A stretch of DNA of 64,000 bases from a virus: positions 434,001 to 498,000 of IMG/VR virus record IMGVR_UViG_3300046665_000548, one strand, 5' to 3'. The notes beneath the pieces are model-generated. The model saw only the letters and a program-made list of their open reading frames with translations. It was not told the DNA's origin and searched no databases. This document shows positions 5,623 through 62,339 of the stretch, piece after piece. The position numbers were made by a program, and so were the translations under genes. Each line of letters opens with the position of its first letter. The first letter of the stretch is position 1.

Positions 5623-6555
5623 TCAAGAGTACAGGCTGGAGACGCTGAGCCCGCCTGACATTCGCGCAATGGCCTCCCCCAGCAATGGCGAGATCGACAG
5701 GACGCGGATGTTCGGAGCGGCAAGAACCGCTTCGGTTGGCATGATTGAATCGGTGATCACCAGTTCTTTCAGCTTCGAGCCGGAGACGCGTTCGACAGCC
5801 GTTCCAGACAGCACGCCGTGCGAGATGTACGCATAGACATCGGTCGCTCCCTGATCGAGCAGGGCGGCTGCCGCGTTGCAGAGCGTTCCACCAGAATCGA
5901 TCATATCGTCAACGAGGATACAGGTCTGCCCCTCGACGCTTCCGATGATGTTCATGACCTCGGATTCGCCTGCGCGCTCGCGGCGCTTGTCCACGATGGC
6001 CAACGGCGCATTGATGCGCTTCGCGAGAGCCCTGGCCCGGACCACACCGCCCACGTCGGGCGACACAACCGTGGTTGACGTGGAATTCAGACGCTGACGG
6101 ATATCTGCCGTGAAGACCGGAGCACCAAACAGGTTATCGGTCGGAATATCGAAAAATCCCTGAATTTGACCAGCATGTAGATCGAGAGTTAGAACATGAT
6201 CAACGCCAGCGTGCGTGATGAGATTAGCAACCAGCTTTGCCGAGATCGGCGTGCGGGCGGCCGACTTTCGATCCTGCCGGGCGTAACCAAAATACGGAAT
6301 AACCGCAATGATTCGGTTGGCGGATGCACGCCGCAGCGCGTCCGTCATGACCAGTAGCTCCATCAGATTGTCGTTGGTCGGAGCCGACGTTGACTGGACC
6401 AGATAAACATCCTCGCCTCGGACGTTTTCTTCAATTTCAACAAAGATTTCCCCATCAGCAAAGCGGCGAACGATAGCCTTGGTCAGCGGCAACTTTAGGT
6501 ATTCGCCAACGGCTTTTGCTAGAGGGATATTGGAGTTACCAGAAATGATTTTCAT
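5623..6555 (-). CDS. prs: Ribose-phosphate pyrophosphokinase (PRPP synthetase)
   Basis: Makes PRPP from ribose 5-phosphate and ATP in the cytosol. Full length (310 residues; bacterial enzymes are about 310-315). Visible motifs: '[11 protein letters not shown]' (87-97, ATP binding), '[17 protein letters not shown]' (125-141), the '[10 protein letters not shown]' loop (188-197) and the PRPP-binding '[10 protein letters not shown]' (215-224). All look intact. Nearby nadV uses PRPP to make NMN, so this gene probably feeds NAD+ salvage. A member of this family in NARP1-type phages makes ADP-ribose pyrophosphate instead; the conserved ribose-phosphate motifs here favour ordinary PRPP synthesis, but this is not proven. 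Confidence 0.95.
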
Positions 6556-8313: not shown

Positions 8314-8856
8314 TCAGTATGTAGTAACAATTTTGTCGGCTAAGCCGAGTTTCACTGCTTCCTTCGAGTCTAACCATACGTCTTCCGGAGGCAATAGCTT
8401 TTCTTGAATAACCTTCTCTTTCAGTCCTGTGCACTTTTTGTAGTGCTCCATGATGCGATGCTGAAGAAGACTGAATTCACGCATGGTCGCGAATAGCTCG
8501 TGCTCTTTACCGAATTGGCCCCACGAGTATTGGTGTGAAAGAATGGAGGTGTTTGGTGTAATCACGCGGTGGCCGGGCTTACCGCTAATGAAGAGCAGAA
8601 GACCGCAGCTTGCGATTGATCCGAGACCAACGGTGTGCACGGGAATCTTCGAACCCTTGATCGTGTCGATCAAAGCGAAACAGTCTGGCACGCTTCCGCC
8701 AGGAGAATTAATTACGAAGGTCAGAGATTTCGGGCGTTCATCGCCCTTGGTCAAATTCTTTTCTAGAACAAACCGAATAGCTTTCTCACAGCTACTCGCA
8801 GTGAAATTTTCCATAAACAGGAATACGCCGCTCTTCTCTAAAGGACTGTCAGTCAC
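8314..8856 (-). CDS. ClpP-family serine protease (divergent paralogue)
   Basis: 180 residues with the ClpP fold signature 'VINSPGGSV' (48-56). The catalytic triad is complete: Ser83 in 'GSIASCGLLL', His108 in 'ILSHQYSWG' and Asp159 in 'PPEDVWLDSKEA'. It differs strongly from the canonical ClpP encoded at 61746-62339 and looks like the ClpP-like proteins of phage-type or prohead-associated families. The start is a GTG with GAAAG upstream. Probably cytosolic. Substrate and ATPase partner unknown. Confidence 0.85.
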   Translation of the reverse strand: MTDSPLEKSGVFLFMENFTASSCEKAIRFVLEKNLTKGDERPKSLTFVINSPGGSVPDCFALIDTIKGSKIPVHTVGLGSIASCGLLLFISGKPGHRVITPNTSILSHQYSWGQFGKEHELFATMREFSLLQHRIMEHYKKCTGLKEKVIQEKLLPPEDVWLDSKEAVKLGLADKIVTTY

Positions 8857-10886: not shown

Positions 10887-11642
10887 ATGAGCGGCTTTGA
10901 TCTTTTTCAGAATCCCGATGGTGCCGATTTCCAGGCACAGGCAGTTCTTGCCTACTTGCGTGACCGCCTGGGCTCTGGGATCGAGCAGAGTTGGGACCCC
11001 ACGTATCATCGCTACACGGCAGAGCCGAAGGTAACCCGCTACGACAATGGTCGCGAGCAGGGTTACATCGTGTACATGCGTGGCCGCGATTACAGCGATC
11101 AGATCAACATCGCGTTCTACGAACATCGTAACAGCGACAACATCTGCGCGGTCAAGTCGAACCAGCGCACCTTCAACGCGCCTCTCCTTGACGATATTTT
11201 GAAGGTCATGACGGACAAGTACGACACTACTAAGACCGTGGGCGTCGGTCAGGCGTACGAACTCGCCGGATGGATCGCGGATCAGCTTATCGAGTTTTGG
11301 GATGAGACCGAACTGAACGCGGCAGATCGCACGCGTAAGCGTGAGGAAGAAACCCGTAAGTGGGAGGAATCCGCCGCTAACGCCCGCAAGAAGGCTTACG
11401 AGGAAGATACTAAGCGCAAGGAAGGCGCGCATCGCCGGGCACGCTCCACCGCCCGCAGCGCCCCCCGTAGCTGGTGGGAGGTCCTTGGGGTGACCCGGAA
11501 CTGTACCCAGGCCGAGGCAAGGACGGCTTGGCGCAAGCTGGCCATGAAGAACCATCCGGATAGTGGTGGGGACACGGAGACCATGCAGGAGATCAACGCG
11601 GCATGGACCGAAGCTCAGCGAGGATTCAAGAAGGCTGCATAA
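10887..11642 (+). CDS. J-domain (DnaJ-like) co-chaperone with phage N-terminal domain
   Basis: 251 residues. The C-terminal 60 residues form a J domain: 'SWWEVLGVTRNCTQAEARTA', 'WRKLAMKNHPDSGG' with the essential His-Pro-Asp, and 'MQEINAAWTEAQ'. J domains stimulate the ATPase of DnaK/Hsp70. The first 130 residues are an unknown globular domain, followed by a charged helix (about 140-190). The J domain at the C-terminus, unlike DnaJ, resembles DjlA or viral J proteins. ATG 10887 with ACGGAG. A terminator follows directly. Confidence 0.85.
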   Translation: MSGFDLFQNPDGADFQAQAVLAYLRDRLGSGIEQSWDPTYHRYTAEPKVTRYDNGREQGYIVYMRGRDYSDQINIAFYEHRNSDNICAVKSNQRTFNAPLLDDILKVMTDKYDTTKTVGVGQAYELAGWIADQLIEFWDETELNAADRTRKREEETRKWEESAANARKKAYEEDTKRKEGAHRRARSTARSAPRSWWEVLGVTRNCTQAEARTAWRKLAMKNHPDSGGDTETMQEINAAWTEAQRGFKKAA

Positions 11643-11644
11643 GG

Positions 11645-11674
11645 AAAGGGCGGCCCTAGAGCCGCCCTTTTACT
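11645..11674. terminator. Bidirectional intrinsic terminator
   Basis: Perfect 10-bp stem AAAGGGCGGC / GCCGCCCTTT (11645-11654, 11661-11670) with a 6-nt loop; A-tract on the left and T-tract on the right, so it can work on both strands. It separates the J-domain gene from the convergent minus operon ending at 11670. Confidence 0.85.
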
Positions 11675-11882
11675 TGTTGAACCACACGACGTGCGTGGCA
11701 TCAGGTGGCATTTCTTCAATCTTGCTCGGCAACAGATAAACGTCAGGCGCACATTTGCCATTCTTCACCGGATGCCCAAAACCGTCATAGTCGGTGAAGA
11801 AATGATCGCGCACGCTCTCCAGAAAGTCCGCAACCGTGTATATGTCGTCGCCTAGCGTGACCTGTTCGGTGTAGGACGCCAT
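11670..11882 (-). CDS. Unknown small protein (70 aa)
   Basis: Begins MASYTEQVTLGDDIYTVADFLESVRDHF and ends 'PPDATHVVWFNK'. Not recognised; the C-terminal 'ATHVVWFN' is a pattern I have seen in short conserved phage proteins. Start shares one base with the stop of the gene upstream. Confidence 0.55.
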   Translation of the reverse strand: MASYTEQVTLGDDIYTVADFLESVRDHFFTDYDGFGHPVKNGKCAPDVYLLPSKIEEMPPDATHVVWFNK

Positions 11883-12334
11883 TACGCGTCCTCGTCTTCA
11901 TCTTCGTCGGCAGACTCGGCCTTGGAAATGGCCTCGGCCAGGGGCGTATATGTCGGGCCTAAGCGCCGATCCTCGAAGAGAAACCAGCCGCCATCCTTCC
12001 ACACATAGGTGTATTCGTTGAGGTCACCAGCCTTGATAGCGGCTTTGATGCTGTCGAACACCTTGGTGTCAACATCCTCCTCGCCACGATCTCGACCATA
12101 ATAGGTGGTGTATCCTTTCACGGGCTTGTCGTAACTGTGCCCCGGAGGCTTGTCACACATCGGCCCCAGGGAAGAGATATCGCCGGGCGCAACCAGTGCT
12201 TCTGCAAGCTCCTGCGACGTGTAATGATCCCGCAGGATCACGCCATTGTGGGACAGATAGCCGTCCCAATGGCAGTAGATGCGGCGAGCCTTGCCGTCTG
12301 TACATTCTACGATCACATCACTGCGCGTTCCCAT
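11882..12334 (-). CDS. Conserved phage protein, 'MGTRSDVIVE' family (150 aa)
   Basis: Starts MGTRSDVIVECTDGKARRIYCHWDGYLSHNG, a highly recognisable family spread through phages and bacteria with no known function. The conserved 'YCHWDGY' and a later 'TYVWKDGGWFLFE' suggest a ligand-binding beta domain. The start at 12334 has AGGAGAG upstream; an in-frame ATG 15 nt earlier is less likely. The acidic C-terminus is low complexity (DEDEDED). Confidence 0.75.
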   Translation of the reverse strand: MGTRSDVIVECTDGKARRIYCHWDGYLSHNGVILRDHYTSQELAEALVAPGDISSLGPMCDKPPGHSYDKPVKGYTTYYGRDRGEEDVDTKVFDSIKAAIKAGDLNEYTYVWKDGGWFLFEDRRLGPTYTPLAEAISKAESADEDEDEDA

Positions 12335-12351
12335 TTGCTCTCCTGCCAAGA

Positions 12352-12672
12352 TTAAGAATCAAAGACACCGCACAGCTTGGCATGCAAGGTATCTCGGTTG
12401 AAATGTTCGAAATCGCCTTCGAAGCGGTCAAAGCTGACCTCTCGCGTCGCTCGTCTGGACAGCAATGTCAGCTTCCACCGGCCGCATTCGTAGCGAATGC
12501 GGTCGTGAGTTCGACTGTTCTCCCATGACATAAGGAGGGGATCAGTTATCCAGAAGACACGAATAGTGCGCTGATCGGAAATAGCAACGCGCTTGGCTTC
12601 GGTTGGTCCATAGTTGCCGCCGCCCGGTATAACCGAGCGCCAAGACAGGCAAAGGTCCTGATCAGGTTTCAT
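12352..12672 (-). CDS. Small 'FKL'-motif paralogue, divergent (106 aa)
   Basis: Ends 'FEGDFEHFNRDTLHAKLCGVF', a degenerate form of the family motif. The middle has 'RIRYECGRWKLTLLSRRA'. ATG 12672 overlaps the end of the upstream gene by 11 nt. Membership is weaker than for the other copies because only the final 20 residues align by eye. Confidence 0.5.
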   Translation of the reverse strand: MKPDQDLCLSWRSVIPGGGNYGPTEAKRVAISDQRTIRVFWITDPLLMSWENSRTHDRIRYECGRWKLTLLSRRATREVSFDRFEGDFEHFNRDTLHAKLCGVFDS

Positions 12673-12877
12673 CAGAATCAAGCAAGCTCTCCAGAATTTT
12701 TACGGCTTCCTCTTTCGTCTCGTATCCGCGAATACCAAGCTGCTTGCGCGTGTCGAAGAACATCTGCGCCATCTTCGCCACTCCGCCCGTGGACATGTTC
12801 AAAAACACGCTGTTGTGGGCGACCTGTGGGCCTGTGAAATGCTCGGCAATGGCTTCGATGGTTTTCGCGCGGCTCAT
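12662..12877 (-). CDS. Unknown small helical protein (71 aa)
   Basis: Starts MSRAKTIEAIAEHFTG at 12877 with GAGGAA upstream; the in-frame ATG at 12922 lies inside the preceding gene and is unlikely. 'YETKEEAVKILESLL' looks like a C-terminal helix. Not recognised. Confidence 0.55.
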   Translation of the reverse strand: MSRAKTIEAIAEHFTGPQVAHNSVFLNMSTGGVAKMAQMFFDTRKQLGIRGYETKEEAVKILESLLDSDET

Positions 12878-12887
12878 GGGAGGTTCC

Positions 12888-13457
12888 TCAGACGGAGCAG
12901 TACAATGGTTCTTTGCGGGCAATCGCCTTGTCGAGCAGGGCGATCAGGTTTTCGCGCTTGTTAGCGAACATTTGGTGCCATTCTTTGACACTGTTGCCCT
13001 TCTCGTGAAAATTGATCTTGTCCCAGGCCCGGCCCTTCGGGGGCTTGCTCTTCTCCGCCGCCCATGCCTTGACGCGCGCCTCCAAATCGATCTCTTCGAG
13101 ATATTTCTTGAGCCGCTTCATGCTGGTGACAGACATGCGGCGTTGCTTGTTGATCAGCTTGCCGACAGGGGAATGCTTGGAGCCTCCGTTCACGTCCGCA
13201 GCTTGCCACCAGGAAAGCCCTAGGACGCCGAATAGGCTGCTTGCGTTGTAGGAGTCGCGATAGTATCCATCGTCGGGATACATCGCGTCATACGCCTCCC
13301 CAACGGCTTCCTGGAGCTTCTTATAAGCGCGGCTGTTGCCGGAGTTCGGATTCTCCTGTGCAAAGATGTCGCGAGCCGCGCAGGCCGCATTGAACCGGGG
13401 CTCCCACTTTGCTCTGGCAGCGTCCGAAATGCTCTTGAGGTAAATGTCAGCGCCCAT
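12888..13457 (-). CDS. Conserved phage protein, 'MGADIYLKS' family (189 aa)
   Basis: Starts MGADIYLKSISDAARAKWEPRF at 13457 with GGAGAAT upstream. This family with its 'DGYYRDSYNASSLFGVLGLSWW' segment (about 65-90) recurs in large phages; function unknown. The C-terminal half is helical and basic, ending 'ENLIALLDKAIARKEPLYCSV'. Overlaps the upstream gene by 11 nt. Confidence 0.7.
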   Translation of the reverse strand: MGADIYLKSISDAARAKWEPRFNAACAARDIFAQENPNSGNSRAYKKLQEAVGEAYDAMYPDDGYYRDSYNASSLFGVLGLSWWQAADVNGGSKHSPVGKLINKQRRMSVTSMKRLKKYLEEIDLEARVKAWAAEKSKPPKGRAWDKINFHEKGNSVKEWHQMFANKRENLIALLDKAIARKEPLYCSV

Positions 13458-13713
13458 CGTTATTCTCCAGTTTTGCGTACACCGTATCCATGAGGTCGCG
13501 CCAATCACCGTTGGCTTCCGCCCAATCGTAAAAGCCGGATTCGGTCTGGCCAGCAGCAACAGCGTTGCGCCATGCCGTGCGGAGTTCGTTGGCTGCCTGC
13601 TCGTGCGGCGAGTCGGGCTTCAAAGCGGGGCAAGTTTCATCTTCCCCGTATTTGCACGAGCCTAGGTTCTCACCGAAGTTGCAATGTGTCAGATGTACGC
13701 CGTCGCTGGACAT
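13447..13713 (-). CDS. Small Cys-rich conserved protein, possible zinc binding (88 aa)
   Basis: The N-terminus 'HLTHCNFGENLGSCKYGEDETCPAL' holds a His and three Cys in a compact knuckle (residues about 7-31), a pattern recurring in small phage proteins. The C-terminal part is helical ('AANELRTAWRNAVAAGQTESG'). Function unknown; zinc binding is inferred from the residues alone. Confidence 0.65.
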   Translation of the reverse strand: MSSDGVHLTHCNFGENLGSCKYGEDETCPALKPDSPHEQAANELRTAWRNAVAAGQTESGFYDWAEANGDWRDLMDTVYAKLENNDGR

Positions 13714-14760: not shown

Positions 14761-15837
14761 GTGCGCAATAGCACAACAAAAGGCACGCCAGCGCGTGTCG
14801 AAAAACCCCCGTACAATCTCGCCGTCTTCATAGGCCGTTTCCAGCCCTTCCACCCCGGCCATCTGCACGTTTTGCAGAGTGCTTTGGATAGTGCTGACGC
14901 GCTCACAGTTCTGGTCGGCTCCTCGAATGAGCCCCGCACATATCACAATCCGTTCACGTTCGAAGAGCGTAAACGGATGATCGAAGCTAGCCTTGCGCCA
15001 GAGCTTCGGTCACGCGTGCTGATCCTACCCATCCACGATCACATGTACAACAATTCGGCATGGGTCCTGGAAGTGCAGGATGTCGTGAACGAAGCGAAAG
15101 ACCACTTTGGTCTGAAGAATTCAGCCAAGGTCGCGCTCGTCGGTCACAGCAAAGACCACACGAGCTTCTACCTCAAGATGTTCCCTCAGTGGGGAGCTAT
15201 GGAGGTTGGAAATTTCCGCAGCATCAGCGCCACACCGATCCGTGATCTGTTCTTCAATACTCGCACGTACAGTAACTTTTGTCTGTCGGTCGGTGACGAA
15301 CTGGAGCAGCCGGTACTGGACGTTCTCTACAAGTTCGCGAACGAGGAATGCTATCGCGATTTGATCGCGGAGTACGAACACGTCCGTAGACTACAGCAGC
15401 CCTATTTGGGTCTGCCGTATAAGCCGATCTTCCAGACCGTGGATGCCTGCATTGTGCAGTCCGGACACGTGCTGATGATCAAGCGACGCAGCCTTCCTGG
15501 TCGCGGCCTGTGGGCTCTACCGGGCGGGTTCATCAAGGCCGAAGAGACCATCAACGATGGTATGATTCGGATCGTTCGGGACAAGACGAAGATCGAAATC
15601 CCGGAACGTGTTCTTCGGATGTCGATGACGACAAATCGGCGCTTCGATGATCCTCATCGTTCGTCAAGAGGTCGGACTATCACTGACGCTTTCCTGCTTC
15701 GACTTCAGGATAACGTCGAACTGCCTAAGGTGGCCAAGTCAGAAGATATTCAGTGGTGGCCCATCGCGGATGTTCAGCGAAACATGTGCTTTGAAGATCA
15801 CTACTACATTCTGAGCAACCTCCTCAGTATATCGTAA
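14761..15837 (+). CDS. nadM: Bifunctional NMN adenylyltransferase / Nudix protein
   Basis: Joins NMN and ATP to make NAD+. The N-terminal nucleotidyltransferase shows 'GRFQPFHPGH' (25-34) and 'ISATPIR' (155-161), both intact. The C-terminal domain (about 220-358) is Nudix-like, as in the NadM-Nudix proteins of Synechocystis and Francisella and NatV of phage KVP40. Its Nudix box (256-278) is damaged: the catalytic R-E-x-x-E-E reads R-I-V-R-D-K, so ADP-ribose hydrolysis is doubtful. GTG start with TAGGAG. It sits directly before nadV; together they convert nicotinamide to NAD+. Confidence 0.93.
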   Translation: MRNSTTKGTPARVEKPPYNLAVFIGRFQPFHPGHLHVLQSALDSADALTVLVGSSNEPRTYHNPFTFEERKRMIEASLAPELRSRVLILPIHDHMYNNSAWVLEVQDVVNEAKDHFGLKNSAKVALVGHSKDHTSFYLKMFPQWGAMEVGNFRSISATPIRDLFFNTRTYSNFCLSVGDELEQPVLDVLYKFANEECYRDLIAEYEHVRRLQQPYLGLPYKPIFQTVDACIVQSGHVLMIKRRSLPGRGLWALPGGFIKAEETINDGMIRIVRDKTKIEIPERVLRMSMTTNRRFDDPHRSSRGRTITDAFLLRLQDNVELPKVAKSEDIQWWPIADVQRNMCFEDHYYILSNLLSIS

Positions 15838-15927
15838 TCGTTTTCACTATTCCCAATCTACCAGAAGTTCTATAAGACGGCGAGATATACTCGGCGCATG
15901 AACATTACCCCAAAGGAGCCTTTGGCT

Positions 15928-17367
15928 ATGACTAACCTATTTTCTGTTCCCCTACTCGCTCAAGCAACCCGCGCCGAACGCGAAGCATTTGCTCTCGCAA
16001 TGTTCAACAATCCGTGCATCATGACGGACAGTTACAAGGCCAGCCATTACTTGCAGTATCCGCCGAACACCAACTACGTTTATAGCTACATCGAGAGCCG
16101 TGGCGGCCGGTGGGCTAAGACGGTCTGGTTCGGCGCACAGGGCCTAATCAAGAAGCACCTGCGTACGCGCGTGACGCGCGAAATGGTCGAGGTCGCGAAG
16201 CTGTTCTGGGCCGCACACGGCGAGCCCTTTAACTACGACGGCTGGATGTACATCGTTGAGAAATACAAGGGTCGTATCCCGTTGACGATCAAGGCCGCGC
16301 CAGAAGGCATGGTCATCCCGACGCACAACATTCTGCTGTCGGTGATCAACAACGACCCGAACCTCGGCTGGCTCACCAGTTGGTTCGAGACCCTTCTTCT
16401 GCGCGTCTGGCACGCCACGACGGTTTCGACCGGCTCCTGGTACTGCAAGCAGATGATCATGGAAGCTCTGAACGTATCGTCGGATATCCCCGAAGAAGCG
16501 ATCCTGTTCGCTTTGCATGATTTCGGTATGCGCGGTGCGGTCGATTCATCGCTGTCTGGCGCTGGTCACCTTGTCCACTTCATGGGCACCGACAACACCG
16601 AGGGTATCATCGGCGCGATGGCGTTCTACGATGCGCAGATGTGCGGCCTGTCGATCCCCGCTGCCGAACATTCGTCCATCACGTCCTGGGGCCGCGAGAA
16701 CGAGGTCGAGGCGTATCGCAACATGCTTCGCCAGTTCGCCAAGCCCGGCACCATGGTGGCAGTGGTTTCGGACAGCTACGATCTGTGGAACGCCATCGAT
16801 AACCTGTGGGGCGACAAGCTTCGCCAGGAGGTGATCGACAGCGGCGCGGTCGTCGTGGTTCGCCCCGATTCGGGTGATCCGACCGTCGTTCCGATCCAGG
16901 CCATTCAGCGTCTGGATGCGCGCTTCGGTTCGACCGTCAACAGCAAGGGCTATCGCGTTCTCAAGAACGTGAAGGTCATTCAGGGCGACGGCATCACACC
17001 GGACACGATCCCGGTGATCCTGAAGAACCTGCTGGCGGCTGGCTACTCGGCCGAGAACCTTGCCTTCGGTATGGGCGGCGGACTGCACACGGTCGGCATC
17101 GACCGCGACACGCAAAAGTTCGCGATGAAGTGCTCGGCCGCGCTGGTCGATGGTACCTGGATCGATGTGTTCAAGGACCCGGCCACCGATCCTGGCAAGC
17201 GTTCGAAGAAGGGCAAGCTGGCGCTGGTCAAGAACGACGCTGGCGAGTTCGAGACCGTGCCGCTGGAGGGCAACGAGGATCGCGATCTCCTCGTAACCAT
17301 CTACGACAACGGCGACATCGTGAAGGACTGGACCTTCGAAGAGGTTCGCGCCAACGCCGCTGCATAA
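15928..17367 (+). CDS. nadV: Nicotinamide phosphoribosyltransferase (NAMPT)
   Basis: Makes NMN from nicotinamide and PRPP. 479 residues from ATG 15928, close to the usual 460-490. Family features: 'NPCIMTDSYKASHYLQYP', 'HDFGMRGAVDSSLSGAGHL', 'GTDNTEGI', 'VVRPDSGDPT' and 'GDGITPDTIPVIL', all uninterrupted. ATG 15928 is chosen because of the AAGGAG 9 nt before it; an in-frame ATG at 15898 lies 6 nt after a TATACT box and could be an alternative leaderless start. With nadM upstream and prs nearby it completes NAD+ salvage. GC-rich in codon third positions compared with the small early genes. Confidence 0.95.
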   Translation: MTNLFSVPLLAQATRAEREAFALAMFNNPCIMTDSYKASHYLQYPPNTNYVYSYIESRGGRWAKTVWFGAQGLIKKHLRTRVTREMVEVAKLFWAAHGEPFNYDGWMYIVEKYKGRIPLTIKAAPEGMVIPTHNILLSVINNDPNLGWLTSWFETLLLRVWHATTVSTGSWYCKQMIMEALNVSSDIPEEAILFALHDFGMRGAVDSSLSGAGHLVHFMGTDNTEGIIGAMAFYDAQMCGLSIPAAEHSSITSWGRENEVEAYRNMLRQFAKPGTMVAVVSDSYDLWNAIDNLWGDKLRQEVIDSGAVVVVRPDSGDPTVVPIQAIQRLDARFGSTVNSKGYRVLKNVKVIQGDGITPDTIPVILKNLLAAGYSAENLAFGMGGGLHTVGIDRDTQKFAMKCSAALVDGTWIDVFKDPATDPGKRSKKGKLALVKNDAGEFETVPLEGNEDRDLLVTIYDNGDIVKDWTFEEVRANAAA

Positions 17368-24511: not shown

Positions 24512-24907
24512 TTACTCCAAGATTTCCTTGAGATCGCGCTCGGTCATGTTGAGACCGTCGAGGATCGCCTTTTTCTTGCGCAGACGCTCGGCTTCGGCCG
24601 CCTCTGCCGTTTCTCGCTTGCGGTCCTCCGCCTGATGCTCTTCCCACCAGTTGGCGAGATCACGAGCGGTCGCGTCATGTGCGTTATACACGATGGCATC
24701 CCGCTTCTCCGGCGTCAGCGAGCGAAGCAGCTTGCACAGTCCGGTGATGGATTCGCCATTGCTGGCGTATTCGTTGACGGCTTCGCTGGCCACCCACTTA
24801 GGGACAGGCGCACCAAGCTGGGTGAGAACATAGGCCAAGAGGCCAGCAGCCCGCTTAAGCTCGCGCTCGCGGAGGTTCGGCTCCATATAGTCAGAACGGC
24901 AAGGCAT
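24512..24907 (-). CDS. Conserved phage protein, 'MPCRSDYMEP' family (131 aa)
   Basis: Starts MPCRSDYMEPNLRERELKRAAGLLAYVL, a family common in phages of diverse hosts, including the 'ASEAVNEYASNG...LCKLLRSLTPEKRD' part. The C-terminal third is a charged helix with 'NWWEEHQAEDRKRE'. Function unknown. Confidence 0.75.
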   Translation of the reverse strand: MPCRSDYMEPNLRERELKRAAGLLAYVLTQLGAPVPKWVASEAVNEYASNGESITGLCKLLRSLTPEKRDAIVYNAHDATARDLANWWEEHQAEDRKRETAEAAEAERLRKKKAILDGLNMTERDLKEILE

Positions 24908-24933: not shown

Positions 24934-25248
24934 TTACTTGGATACGCTGTCGAGAACTTGCAGCATGGCGTTGAACACTGCTGGATCGAACTTTTCGACT
25001 TCCTCGATCAGCACCACCTGGGGCGATTTCCGCTGCAATGCTTCGGTAAGCAAGCCGCCCTTCTCGAAGCCGACGTACCCGGCCGGTGCGCCGATCAGCT
25101 TATTCACGGATGCCGCGTCCGAATATTCGGACCCATTGAGGCGGACCAGCGCGGTATCGTCATCGAACAGATATTCGTGTGTTTCCTTGCCGAGCAACGT
25201 CTTGCCAACGCGGCTCGGCCCGTTCAGGAACGTGATCATCGTGGACAC
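24934..25248 (-). CDS. Truncated ClpA/ClpB-type AAA+ module (104 aa, GTG start)
   Basis: Contains a Walker A 'GPSRVGKT' (10-17), a GYVG pore loop ('APAGYVGFEKGG', 54-65) and a Walker B-like 'VVLIEEVEK' (78-86), lined up as in the second ATPase domain of ClpB. It stops before sensor 1, the arginine finger and sensor 2, so it is only the front half of a AAA+ domain. Walker B has Glu-Glu instead of Asp-Glu. GTG 25248 shares one base with the upstream stop (TAGTG) and has GGAGG. It may act as a decoy or subunit modifier of host Clp machinery, which is a guess. Confidence 0.7.
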   Translation of the reverse strand: MSTMITFLNGPSRVGKTLLGKETHEYLFDDDTALVRLNGSEYSDAASVNKLIGAPAGYVGFEKGGLLTEALQRKSPQVVLIEEVEKFDPAVFNAMLQVLDSVSK

Positions 25249-26660
25249 TATGCAACCTCCGCTGCGATGAACGACTTCTTGGCCTTGGTCGAGCCCCAGG
25301 CCAGCCCGTAGTTGGCGGCACAGGTTGAGCCGTAACCAACCTCGATAGAACGGGCGTCCTTGAGAGGCTTGCGGCAGAACGCGCAGTTGCCAGTCTTGCG
25401 CCCGTATTCGGTAGCGACCTTGACCGGATCGGCCGAGAGCGCCAGCAGGGTATCGTTGAGGCCAACCGGAGCAATCCGGGTGCCGTTGAACGAACCGTCC
25501 AGACCGATGCGACCGAACCACTGATTGTCGGGATACTTGCCCAAATCGGTGACATTGATTGAACCCGGAACCTTGGCCTTCGAACCAGCGACCGTCAGCT
25601 TGATCTCAACCTCATTGCCACGGTCGTTCTGCGTCAGCAGCACGATGGCCGGGTTGCGGAGCTTCGACTTGGCGGTATCGAAGAGTGCGACGATGCCCTT
25701 CATGTCCACGTTGATCGCAGCCGGGCGCGGCGTCGAGCGCTCGATCTGGCGCAGGTAGCAGAAGATGATCGAAGCAGCGATGCCGCCATGACGGGTCTCG
25801 ATCATTTCGCTGTTCGCGATGACCGACACGTTGTGCATGTAGTCGGACAGGTTCGACTTCTCGCATTCAGCCCGGATGAAATCCAGAGCCGCAGCCGCGA
25901 TCTCGCGATCTGCCTCGGTCACCTGAGGCTCGAATTCCTTGTGCGACGGAAACATCGAATGGAACGCGTCTTCGCGAGTGCTGGTCAGATAGACGCCGCG
26001 CTCTTCCGCCTCACGGACGGCCTTCATCGACACGTAGCCCTTCTGCTCACGAACCGAGCGAGCGGCGTGGCTCAGGAACTCTTCCAGATCGATGTAGCGG
26101 CGGTCATTCATGCCGCCGAAGCTCTCATCGAGTTCTTCGAAGCCGCGACCGGTCTCGGTGGCGTAGCTCAGAAGCTCAGCGAAGGCTGCAATCTTCGAAA
26201 CGTCGTGACCGAAGAAATCCACCAGACAGGACGAACCGACCTGCTGAAAATTGCCGGTCGCGTCCTCGCACACCACGAAGGTATCACGGCGCTGGCGACG
26301 CACCTTGCAGTGGTCGCAGTTCGGTTCGCAGTTGCGGTAGCGCTCCGGCAGCTTGACGCCAGAGTTGGGAACCGTGCGGATCAAGGTACCGGCTTCCTGG
26401 GAATGATCGAGGCGGGCGACGAAGGTCCAGCCGTCCACGCGGGGAACCTCGGCGGTCAGCATGACCTGAATGACCTTGTAATCGCGGCCCTTCGAGTCCT
26501 TCTGGTAATCGTAACCGAACACGAACGGCTTGATCTCCTGACCGATCAGCTTCACCGACTTACGGGAAAGCTTCTCGATCTTGGCCGAGAACTTGGCCCA
26601 ATTTGCCTCCGGAATATTGAAGGTGGTGCGGCTCTCTGCGGTGTCGGTGATCTGCGTCAT
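25248..26660 (-). CDS. Unknown protein with two Cys knuckles (470 aa)
   Basis: Found in phages and plasmids, function unknown to me. Two probable zinc sites: 'CEPNCDHCKVRRQRRDTFVV' (about 111-130) and 'NCAFCRKPLKDARSIEVGYG' followed by 'STC' near the C-terminus (DUF6011-like). The middle is helical. Both Cys knuckles are followed by basic residues, so nucleic-acid binding is plausible. Driven by the promoter at 26687-26714. Confidence 0.6.
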   Translation of the reverse strand: MTQITDTAESRTTFNIPEANWAKFSAKIEKLSRKSVKLIGQEIKPFVFGYDYQKDSKGRDYKVIQVMLTAEVPRVDGWTFVARLDHSQEAGTLIRTVPNSGVKLPERYRNCEPNCDHCKVRRQRRDTFVVCEDATGNFQQVGSSCLVDFFGHDVSKIAAFAELLSYATETGRGFEELDESFGGMNDRRYIDLEEFLSHAARSVREQKGYVSMKAVREAEERGVYLTSTREDAFHSMFPSHKEFEPQVTEADREIAAAALDFIRAECEKSNLSDYMHNVSVIANSEMIETRHGGIAASIIFCYLRQIERSTPRPAAINVDMKGIVALFDTAKSKLRNPAIVLLTQNDRGNEVEIKLTVAGSKAKVPGSINVTDLGKYPDNQWFGRIGLDGSFNGTRIAPVGLNDTLLALSADPVKVATEYGRKTGNCAFCRKPLKDARSIEVGYGSTCAANYGLAWGSTKAKKSFIAAEVA

Positions 26661-56003: not shown

Positions 56004-56223
56004 ATATTTCGTGGTGCGGCCGGATCAAGTTAAGGCGTACGCCCCTATCCGTGATATGCACCATGAGCGCGACGGCTGGAGAATCATGACCGAGGTCAAA
56101 ACCCGGAAGGGTACTCGGTATGGCAGGGTGCTAGAACAAGAGGCAAACGGCAATATACGCCACGCTCGTTTTACGAGCGAGGCTGAGGCCGCTGCGGCAA
56201 TCCCTGAGGTATCTCGCCGTTAG
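55996..56223 (+). CDS. Unknown small protein (75 aa)
   Basis: Overlaps the HAD gene by 8 nt. 'MARYFVVRPDQVKAYAPIRD' and 'KGTRYGRVLEQEANGNIRHA' suggest a small beta domain. Not recognised. Confidence 0.5.
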   Translation: MARYFVVRPDQVKAYAPIRDMHHERDGWRIMTEVKTRKGTRYGRVLEQEANGNIRHARFTSEAEAAAAIPEVSRR

Positions 56224-56942
56224 GTCATCAGCTTGGTCACGAGCGCGTCCAGATCGGCTGCGCGCTCTGACGCACGACCGTGTAGCACATGGTCGAAGCT
56301 TTCATCACGGATAGATTCTGCGCTCTCCAGATTGCTGAGGACCGTAGTTGCGTAAGAGGACTCTGCGATGTCGCCAATGTCGATAACCTGACCACTGGTT
56401 CCAATCACGACCAGCACGTCTTCCTTCGTGAGCGATTCGATAATCTTCCACAGCTTGGGGTATTCTGGCGCGATCTCGTTGAAGAACACGACATTTGGCT
56501 TCACGCCCTTGAGGGAATTGCAGGCCGGGCAACGACCCTCTTTTGCGGACCACTCGGCATAGCCAATGTCCCAGGTAGGACAGCCCATGGCGGTGCACTG
56601 CATCTTCTTGAGATCGCCATGCGCGTGGATGACGTTCGCGCACCCGGCGCGCTCGAAGAGATCGTCAATATTCTGAGTGATTACCTTGGCGTCGTAGCGC
56701 TTTTGCCAGTCCGCAACCACGAAATGCGCCTTATTGGGCTCAACATTCGCCAGTTGGGTGCGCCGCTCATTGTAGAAACGGTGAACAAGTTCCCGATTCT
56801 GCTTCCACGTCAATAGGTTAGCAACAGCATCAACGCTGTGGTTCTCCCAAAGACCATCCTTGTCGCGAAAGGTTTGGATACCCGAATCAGCACTGATTCC
56901 GGCCCCGGTGAAGACGACTAGATTGCGGTGAGTTCTATCCAT
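56220..56942 (-). CDS. Sir2-family NAD-dependent deacylase (sirtuin, 240 aa)
   Basis: Removes acyl groups from lysines using NAD+. Motifs: 'FTGAGISADSGIQTFRD' (11-27, NAD binding), 'TQNIDDLF' (89-96), catalytic His108 in 'HAHGDL', and a zinc site of Cys116, Cys121, Cys138 and Cys141. 'FYNERR' (56-61) keeps the Y-x-x-R pair seen in CobB/SIRT5-type desuccinylases, so short-chain acid acyl groups are possible substrates. Full length. ATG 56942 lies 6 nt after a TAAACT box, so the mRNA is probably leaderless. Another NAD-using enzyme in this phage. Confidence 0.9.
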   Translation of the reverse strand: MDRTHRNLVVFTGAGISADSGIQTFRDKDGLWENHSVDAVANLLTWKQNRELVHRFYNERRTQLANVEPNKAHFVVADWQKRYDAKVITQNIDDLFERAGCANVIHAHGDLKKMQCTAMGCPTWDIGYAEWSAKEGRCPACNSLKGVKPNVVFFNEIAPEYPKLWKIIESLTKEDVLVVIGTSGQVIDIGDIAESSYATTVLSNLESAESIRDESFDHVLHGRASERAADLDALVTKLMT

Positions 56943-57247
56943 GGACCCAGTTTACCACGAGAACAGCCGAAACGCAACTTGAATAGCACGGCCGAGTGGT
57001 CGTCTTCAAAGCGGAACAGTGCTCCGGTACAGACCCCGGTCTCCGCATGAATAACGTTCTTAAAGGCCCATTTTCCTATCGAGTACGCAAATAGCCAGTG
57101 GACTATTCGTCCCTCATCATTTGATGGGAGAAAGTTCGCGGCTGCCACCTCATATCTAAGGGTGTCAAAATCAGCAACTCGCACACGCAATAATTGTAAT
57201 TCAGTTATCCAGTCCAACCATGACTCCACATACACGCCATTGTCCAA
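56918..57247 (-). CDS. 'FKL'-motif paralogue (up to 109 aa)
   Basis: Ends with the core 'GALFRFEDDHSAVLFKLRFG' (about 75-94) followed by a short tail. Upstream: 'WLFAYSIGKWAFKNVIHAET'. The longest frame starts with TTG at 57247, inside the agmatinase gene; a later GTG is equally possible. Overlaps the sirtuin start and the agmatinase end. Function unknown. Confidence 0.55.
   Translation of the reverse strand: MDNGVYVESWLDWITELQLLRVRVADFDTLRYEVAAANFLPSNDEGRIVHWLFAYSIGKWAFKNVIHAETGVCTGALFRFEDDHSAVLFKLRFGCSRGKLGPWIELTAI
56949..56977 (-). promoter_or_regulatory. Promoter of the sirtuin gene, leaderless
   Basis: Minus strand: extended -10 TGG-TAAACT (TAAACT at 56954-56949). The -35 is weak: TGCGTT at exactly 16 nt or TTGCGT at 17 nt. 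The ATG at 56942 follows after 6 nt. Confidence 0.55.
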
Positions 57248-58110
57248 AGTAAAGTCGCCGCCGTAAGTGCAGTGGTGCCAGTTGGATCATAAGGTGGGCT
57301 CACTTCGACCAAATCCATACCGATGAATTGATCACCCGTTAACCGATCAAGAAAATTGAGCACAAAATGCGGATTAAGCCCGGCAATTTCTGGCGTCCCC
57401 GTTCCTGGTGCATACGCGGGGTCCAGAGCATCGATATCGAAGGATAGATAGATGTTCTGTTTCTCGGAAAGCTTTCTCGCAAGACTATCGCCGCCTCTAC
57501 TCAAAGCATCACGCGCAGATACCACCGTACCGCCTCGGTTGCGTAACCACTCTCGCGTGACAGGATCGACTGGCGATCTAACGCCGATCTGAATAACGTT
57601 TTCGGCTTTCACGAAGCCACGTTCGACTACATTTCGAACCCAGGTGCCGTGCCCAATAGGGTCGCCAAAATGGTCAGCCCACGTATCGCAGTGTGCATCA
57701 AAATGTAGAAGGGTGATGTCTTTGTATTTTCGCGAATATGCTTCGAGCAAAGCCAGTGAGATCGTGTGATCGCCGCCCATAAACATTAGTTTGGCTGTAT
57801 CCAACAGGAACATTGGATGATTACATACGCTCTCTACAATCGTGTTCAGGCTCTTCTGAACATCAATGTTAGATACAGAAATGTCTCCGAGGTCCGTTAC
57901 ATACGGAACGGGATCAACTCCAAGAATCGGATGAGCCCCGTCCGTGAGCATCATGCTGGCTTCCCGAATTGCTTTCGGCCCGAAGCGTGTCCCAGGCCGA
58001 AAGCTATTTGATCCATCGTATGGAATACCGAACACGCCGATCCTACGAGAGAGATCGCCAATAGGGCTCTTCAAGAACGTAGCAAAACCTTCGTATGGCT
58101 TTTCGAGCAT
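57205..58110 (-). CDS. speB: Agmatinase/arginase-family ureohydrolase (301 aa)
   Basis: Hydrolyses a guanidino group: agmatine to putrescine and urea in the best-known members. All metal-binding motifs are present: 'GGDHTISLAL', 'LLHFDAHCDTWADHFGDPIG' and 'SFDIDALDPAYAPGTGTPE'. Length typical (about 300). The N-terminal 'IGVFGIPYDGSNSFRPGTRF' is that of agmatinases rather than arginases. Polyamines neutralise packaged DNA in T4-like heads, so a role in putrescine supply is possible. Substrate not proven; guanidino acids are also used by this family. Confidence 0.88.
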   Translation of the reverse strand: MLEKPYEGFATFLKSPIGDLSRRIGVFGIPYDGSNSFRPGTRFGPKAIREASMMLTDGAHPILGVDPVPYVTDLGDISVSNIDVQKSLNTIVESVCNHPMFLLDTAKLMFMGGDHTISLALLEAYSRKYKDITLLHFDAHCDTWADHFGDPIGHGTWVRNVVERGFVKAENVIQIGVRSPVDPVTREWLRNRGGTVVSARDALSRGGDSLARKLSEKQNIYLSFDIDALDPAYAPGTGTPEIAGLNPHFVLNFLDRLTGDQFIGMDLVEVSPPYDPTGTTALTAATLLWTMACMWSHGWTG

Positions 58111-61557: not shown

Positions 61558-61749
61558 TCACCTCAATGACTTAATGTACGCGTCAATAGCCGCGCGAGCT
61601 TGGCGCATACTGTGACAATTTTTTATCGTGCAAGGGCGAGGTTCCTTGTCGAGACAATAAGAAGGCCCGCTGTCTGCTTCACATATAGCTCGGCCAACGA
61701 CGCGCACCCTTTTATGATGCGCGTCTTTGCGGGTTTTCTTCTCGGTCAC
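61558..61749 (-). CDS. Small basic Cys-rich protein (63 aa)
   Basis: Four Cys ('[14 protein letters not shown]', '[11 protein letters not shown]') and many Lys/Arg, suggesting a small zinc or disulfide domain. Start overlaps the clpP stop (ATGA). Not recognised. Confidence 0.55.
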
Positions 61750-62339
61750 GCGATATCGGAACGGCTCGCAACAACCTTATCGATGAGACCAAATTCCATG
61801 GCCTCCTGTGCCGACAAGAACGTGTCGCGATCCATTTTCGACTCAATGACCTCAAGCGGCTGTCCTGTGTTATCGGCAAGCATCTGATTGAGCATTTCCT
61901 TGAGGCGCTGAATCTCTTTGTAGGAGATTTCAATATCCGAAGCCATGCCGCGAGCGCCACCAGAAGGCTGATGGATCATGATGCGGGAGTTCGGAAGGGA
62001 GATACGCTTGCCCTTGGCACCAGCAGAAAGTATCATCGCTCCCATCGACGCGGCCTGACCGATACATACCGTGCACACGTCCGGCTTGATAAAGTTCATC
62101 GTGTCGATGATGCCGAGACCTGCCGTAACCACGCCGCCCGGCGAGTTAACGTACATGTAGATGTCCTTATCGGCGTCAACACTTTCGAGGTACAGAAGCT
62201 GCGCCTCGATGAGGCTAGCCATACCGTCTTCGACCTGATCAGCACAGAAAATAATGCGGTCGCGCAGCAGTCGGGAGTAGATGTCAAACGAACGTTCGTT
62301 GCGACCGTCGTTTTCGAGAACCATGGGCACGAGAGCCAT
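61746..62339 (-). CDS. clpP: ClpP protease, canonical
   Basis: Self-compartmentalising serine protease subunit. 197 residues. Triad complete: Ser98 ('[10 protein letters not shown]'), His123 ('[12 protein letters not shown]') and Asp172 ('[12 protein letters not shown]'). '[12 protein letters not shown]' is intact. This looks like a normal bacterial ClpP and should assemble into rings, possibly mixed with host ClpP. It differs strongly from the ClpP-like protein at 8314-8856. No ClpX or ClpA gene is seen; the ClpB fragment at 24934 is the only related ATPase. Confidence 0.95.

Follow-up and report, generated by a model that had tools for sequence, protein, structure and literature searches.

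A truncated ClpB-type D2 ATPase gene in a huge phage genome, possibly a lineage-specific relic

Organization of the locus

The window analyzed here, a stretch of 64,000 nucleotides, spans positions 434001 to 498000 in a virus record of 607,744 bases. Inside a cluster of co-oriented genes it carries an orphan gene of 104 amino acids (24934..25248, minus strand), which its translation and its Pfam, PHROG and PDB matches identify as encoding a truncated ClpB-type D2 AAA+ large subdomain (further referred to as the D2 fragment). The gene begins with GTG (25246-25248, minus strand) and ends with TAA (24934-24936, minus strand), and translation of 24934-25248 on this strand gives 104 codons with no internal stop. 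The upstream gene (25248..26660, minus strand; Pfam and PHROG searches) encodes 470 amino acids with a DUF6011 C-terminus and belongs to phrog_2319/4046. Downstream, 26 bases separate the stop of the D2-fragment gene from the start of a gene of 131 amino acids (24512..24907, minus strand), assigned to phrog_11759 by the PHROG search. The phrog_11759 protein is common to alphaproteobacterial phages (Rhodobacter RcXuper, Ruegeria and Caulobacter CbK-like phages), a distribution hinting at an alphaproteobacterial host.

The preliminary description of this locus had credited the gene with its own start, a GTG served by GGAGG, and the sequence agrees: a Shine-Dalgarno-like GGAGG (25256..25260, minus strand) is located 7 nt 5' of the GTG, within the 3' end of the upstream gene, whose TAG stop (25248..25250, minus strand) shares one base with the GTG (TAGTG). 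This overlap makes translational coupling of the D2 fragment to the upstream gene probable. The codon score of the gene is 0.263 per codon, compared with 0.195 +/- 0.085 for 102-codon stretches of the other window genes, and exceeds the 99th percentile of wrong-frame scores (0.18). Its GC3 (0.752) matches both neighbors (0.786 and 0.712), within a span of 0.49-0.79 among the window genes, so the gene does not appear to be a fresh import. The homology occupies the gene from codon ~5 until 4 codons ahead of the stop, and both its edges coincide with the start and the stop of the gene. The gene is real and probably translated.

Domain content of the D2 fragment

Residues 8-101 of the D2 fragment match positions 8-101 of the 166-position Pfam AAA_2 profile (E 2.2e-27), positions 501-593 of 764 in PHROG 4871 'ATP-dependent protease' match the fragment with E 1.9e-32, and its best sequence relatives in PDB are ClpB D2 segments (E 1e-25). 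Judged from these alignments the kinship with AAA_2 and ClpB D2 is far beyond chance, which bears out the initial view of a separate gene encoding the first portion of a D2 of the ClpB type. Residues ~9-101 are ~45-58% identical to residues 594-686 of Thermus thermophilus ClpB (1qvr), in its D2/NBD2. The elements common to the D2 of ClpB/Hsp100 proteins and the D2 fragment are Walker A, the pore loop and the VEK...VFN..LQVLD segment; unlike those proteins, the fragment has no D1, middle domain, sensor 1, Arg finger or small domain, and the Asp of its Walker B is replaced by Glu.

The alignment places Walker A at residues 10-17 (25198..25221, minus strand); its sequence, GPSRVGKT, meets the pattern GxxxxGK[ST], with GKT intact and the conserved Gly13 replaced by Arg. 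The pore loop GYVG (residues 57-60; 25069..25080, minus strand; alignment) is intact and the VEK motif is also retained. Walker B, located by alignment and pattern scan at residues 78-83 (25000..25017, minus strand), reads VVLIEE, in which Asp82 is replaced by Glu and Glu83 is kept; it does not meet the pattern hhhhDE, the Asp of which is invariant among 97 nonredundant relatives. The protein extends no further than the helix behind Walker B, ending 4 codons past the last conserved Asp and at position 101 of the 166 AAA_2 positions, and it lacks the sensor 1 strand (TSN), the Arg-finger region and the D2 small domain (PF10431). The early reading that Walker A, pore loop and Walker B-like segments are kept and the rest is missing thus agrees with the motifs GPSRVGKT, GYVG and VVLIEE and with the absence of a D2 remainder downstream.

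The strand order of the AAA+ sheet is 5-1-4-3-2. Strand 4, flanked in the sheet by the strands of Walker A and Walker B, is missing, so the isolated fragment should have an incomplete core. As the Walker B Asp, sensor 1 and the Arg-finger region are gone, together with the D2 small domain and two sheet-completing strands, the fragment would be unable to hydrolyze ATP as D2 does; from its missing parts it is predicted to be catalytically dead.

Predicted structure

AlphaFold2, run with 50 sequences, gave a D2-like arrangement of the fragment with pLDDT 80.1 and pTM 0.67, in which the first strand hardly takes shape. The control, the equivalent segment of an ordinary ClpB, reached pLDDT 82.3 and pTM 0.70. 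The confidence of the model was therefore dropped as proof of independent folding, since the control scores the same or slightly better. Nothing in the model suggests that the fragment has adapted to existing alone or compensates for its incomplete core. Among the matches listed, a fold search with it returned only the D2 domains of ClpB, ClpC, ClpA and Hsp104.

Clp proteins encoded by the same phage

The record contains five AAA_2 matches: one in a ClpB-like protein of 736 amino acids, two in a ClpA-like protein, one in ClpX (416 amino acids) and one in the D2 fragment. The ClpA-like protein (758 amino acids) has a Clp_N domain and its two AAA_2 matches represent D1 and D2. In the ClpB-like protein (record about 11501-13711, plus strand) the Walker A of D1 is degenerate, GPEGVGTT without the Lys, and D2 is complete. 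At least 8 other virus records contain relatives of 54-66% identity, and on sequence grounds the protein may be a marker for a lineage of huge phages. It is 50.5% identical to the D2 fragment over 91 amino acids and, unlike the fragment, possesses the D2 small domain. The whole record contains exactly three ClpB_D2-small domains, each in a complete protein, and no complementary C-terminal half of a D2 was found in its 607.7 kb. A programmed frameshift or a split gene that would restore a complete domain can be dismissed for this genome, as there is neither a D2 remainder nor a fourth D2-small domain.

The phage also encodes a canonical ClpP (61746..62339, minus strand) and a second, divergent ClpP-fold protease (8314..8856, minus strand), so that one phage carries two ClpP-fold proteases beside ClpA, ClpX and the ClpB-like protein.

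Search for relatives of the same length

The preliminary description proposed to look for homologs of the same length in related phages, and none was found in the phage records, in the IMG/VR scans (among the matches listed) or in 16 records sharing the ClpB-like gene. In a tblastn search against 50,697 phage records 142 matched the D2 fragment, with at most 58% identity where most of the query was covered, and the ten matching records that were read out all continue for at least 160 residues past the break point of the fragment. The IMG/VR scan with the single protein gave no match; the scans with the alignment and with the phage's own ClpB-like protein gave at least 160 loci. In a pool of homologous ORFs taken from loci of phages, IMG/VR and genomes (n=166, matches listed), only the one from the window ended at the match; the 165 others extend by ~155 residues or more, save three cut by contig ends. 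Only full-length AAA_2 domains occur in the 16 virus records that also carry the ClpB-like gene, among which are two of 518 and 490 kb. No same-length homolog is thus present among the matches listed, which come from relatives ~45-66% identical in the ClpB-like protein, and the absence of conservation, named at the outset as an observation that would speak against a functional half-domain, was found among the relatives available.

A scan of genome contigs returned just three epsilonproteobacterial Clp proteins (46-47% identity), and no closely related phage came up in a DNA search at near identity. No IMG/VR contig matched the 'EE' Walker B pattern. The pattern of a stop 4 codons after LQVLD gave one chance match, with no AAA ORF at that site. 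Records holding relatives of the 131-amino-acid gene or of the DUF6011 gene contain no AAA_2 fragment, and a literature search retrieved no description of such a ClpB D2 fragment. The record of one relative encodes two complete Clp-type ATPases (377046-377528 and 314896-315378) in frames of 716 and 760 amino acids.

The Clp ATPases of Vibrio phages VnaP and qdvp001 have SEYSD, VNKLIG and GGLLTE in common with the D2 fragment (54-57% identity over 67-88 amino acids) and, unlike it, are full-length proteins of about 725 amino acids.

Sequence constraint and origin

In an alignment of the 97 nonredundant relatives 32 columns within residues 10-100 are conserved at ≥90%, and eight of them are altered in the D2 fragment (G13R, D38N, M39G, K45A, P56A, P75S, D82E and A87F). 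The 25 relatives about equally diverged elsewhere carry 0-4 such changes and the maximum over all 97 is 6. Within the fragment the conserved columns are changed at a rate of 25%, compared with 47% for the other columns. The ATPase constraint on the D2 fragment seems, from these substitutions, to have been relaxed for a while, which makes it look unlike a gene broken only recently or a product of misassembly.

In a 58-row tree the D2 fragment is the longest tip (0.88; median 0.21) and lies loosely beside Clp ATPases of the Vibrio phage type, in the same loose group as that of VnaP. Descent by recent copying from the ClpB-like protein or ClpA of this phage was considered: neither is nearest in the tree, yet grouping with the ClpB-like protein (p-AU 0.196) or with ClpA (p-AU 0.251) is not rejected.

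Neutral decay was simulated taking the extra changes as post-truncation and the indel rate as an assumed value. At one indel per 10 substitutions the frame stayed intact in roughly 3-24% of cases, 3-7 changes in the 32 columns leaving an open, indel-free frame with a probability of 0.24-0.03; with fewer indels the proportion rose up to ~40%. The argument that a gene with its own start is not a chance remnant therefore does not hold, as simulated remnants retain an intact frame at these rates. The simulation is suggestive of some constraint on the frame, not decisively.

Interpretation of the D2 fragment

We give about even chances to the D2 fragment being a lineage-specific relic, dead as an ATPase and without a function in Clp systems; such an origin and lack of function are the most likely explanation. 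Truncation of a ClpB-like D2 would have left a piece spanning strand 1 with Walker A to the helix after Walker B, and this piece would be translated owing to its position, coupled to the upstream gene, and would be tolerated while slowly diverging. This reading is supported by the absence of a same-length relative among the matches listed and of a complementary half, by the eight altered columns of 32, the longest tip in the tree and the lack of an 'EE' Walker B elsewhere, and by an AlphaFold2 score no better than that of the control ClpB piece. Against a relic stand the tidy gene with its well-placed start, a codon score in the coding range and GC3 like that of the neighbors, as well as the lower rate of change in the conserved columns and the low probability (only 0.03-0.24) of an intact frame under neutrality. 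A 607-kb phage may also keep lineage-specific small effectors without known relatives. If the fragment is a relic, it shows how pieces of genes survive in huge phage genomes with their start, stop and codon usage intact, and that they may look purposeful.

A modulator of Hsp100 proteins, which would dock on or insert into ClpB or ClpA rings of the host or the phage and cap or poison their assembly, is rather doubtful; poisoning of Clp/Hsp100 hexamers had been suggested in the preliminary description. The retained GKT, GYVG and VEK motifs would preserve the D2 surfaces at Walker A and the pore loop, the gene is coding-like and well initiated, and control of Clp machines plausibly matters to a phage that owns ClpB-like, ClpA, ClpX and ClpP proteins. 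Much of the contact between Hsp100 subunits is made, in established structures, by the D2 small domain and the Arg-finger side, and both are missing from the fragment. Strand 4 of the sheet is also absent, the conserved D38, M39, K45 and A87 are altered, and there is no conservation among the matches listed. We consider it unlikely that an ATPase-dead D2 piece inhibits Hsp100 rings of the host or the phage in trans, or regulates their assembly. ClpP, ClpA, ClpX and a ClpS adaptor are known from jumbo phages (PMC7824862), which favors a role in this direction, and the phage-encoded ClpS adaptors are small proteins whose presumed targets are the Clp machines of the host (PMC7824862). Unlike the D2 fragment, ClpS is not an AAA+ fragment, and nothing in the present data points to an adaptor function of the fragment. 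A functional fragment would represent a regulator that a phage derived from the amputated motor domain of the very Clp/Hsp100 machines it acts on, a protein directed against protein quality control in a phage that itself encodes ClpA, ClpB-like, ClpX and ClpP proteins.

Recruitment as a small protein for another task, such as partnering the DUF6011 protein, with the AAA+ ancestry as mere raw material, is likewise a tentative and rather improbable reading. It would explain the intact frame and the altered catalytic residues together: the frame is open despite eight altered conserved positions, the start overlaps the stop of the DUF6011 gene and GC3 is as in the neighbors. The AlphaFold2 model gives no structural sign of a re-formed fold, and records with relatives of either neighboring gene hold no AAA_2 fragment, which weakens the case. 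For a singleton in a record from a metagenome collection one could suspect that an error of assembly or sequencing, by way of a frameshift or a chimeric join, had disrupted a complete ClpB. Such an artefact is very improbable, given the lack of a downstream D2 remainder or orphan D2-small domain in the record, the homology ending at the start and stop of the gene, and substitutions of invariant residues not expected in a merely misassembled functional copy.

Other genes in the window

An arginase-family protein with no PHROG match (57205-58110, minus strand) gave a Pfam Arginase hit with E 9e-76. The window also encodes cytidylyltransferase-like/Nudix (NMNAT-like), NAMPT, PRPP synthetase and SIR2-family proteins (14761-15837 and 15898-17367, plus strand; 5623-6555 and 56220-56942, minus strand), which by their annotation look like an NAD+ salvage set. 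Such sets have been described for phages countering NAD-depleting defense.
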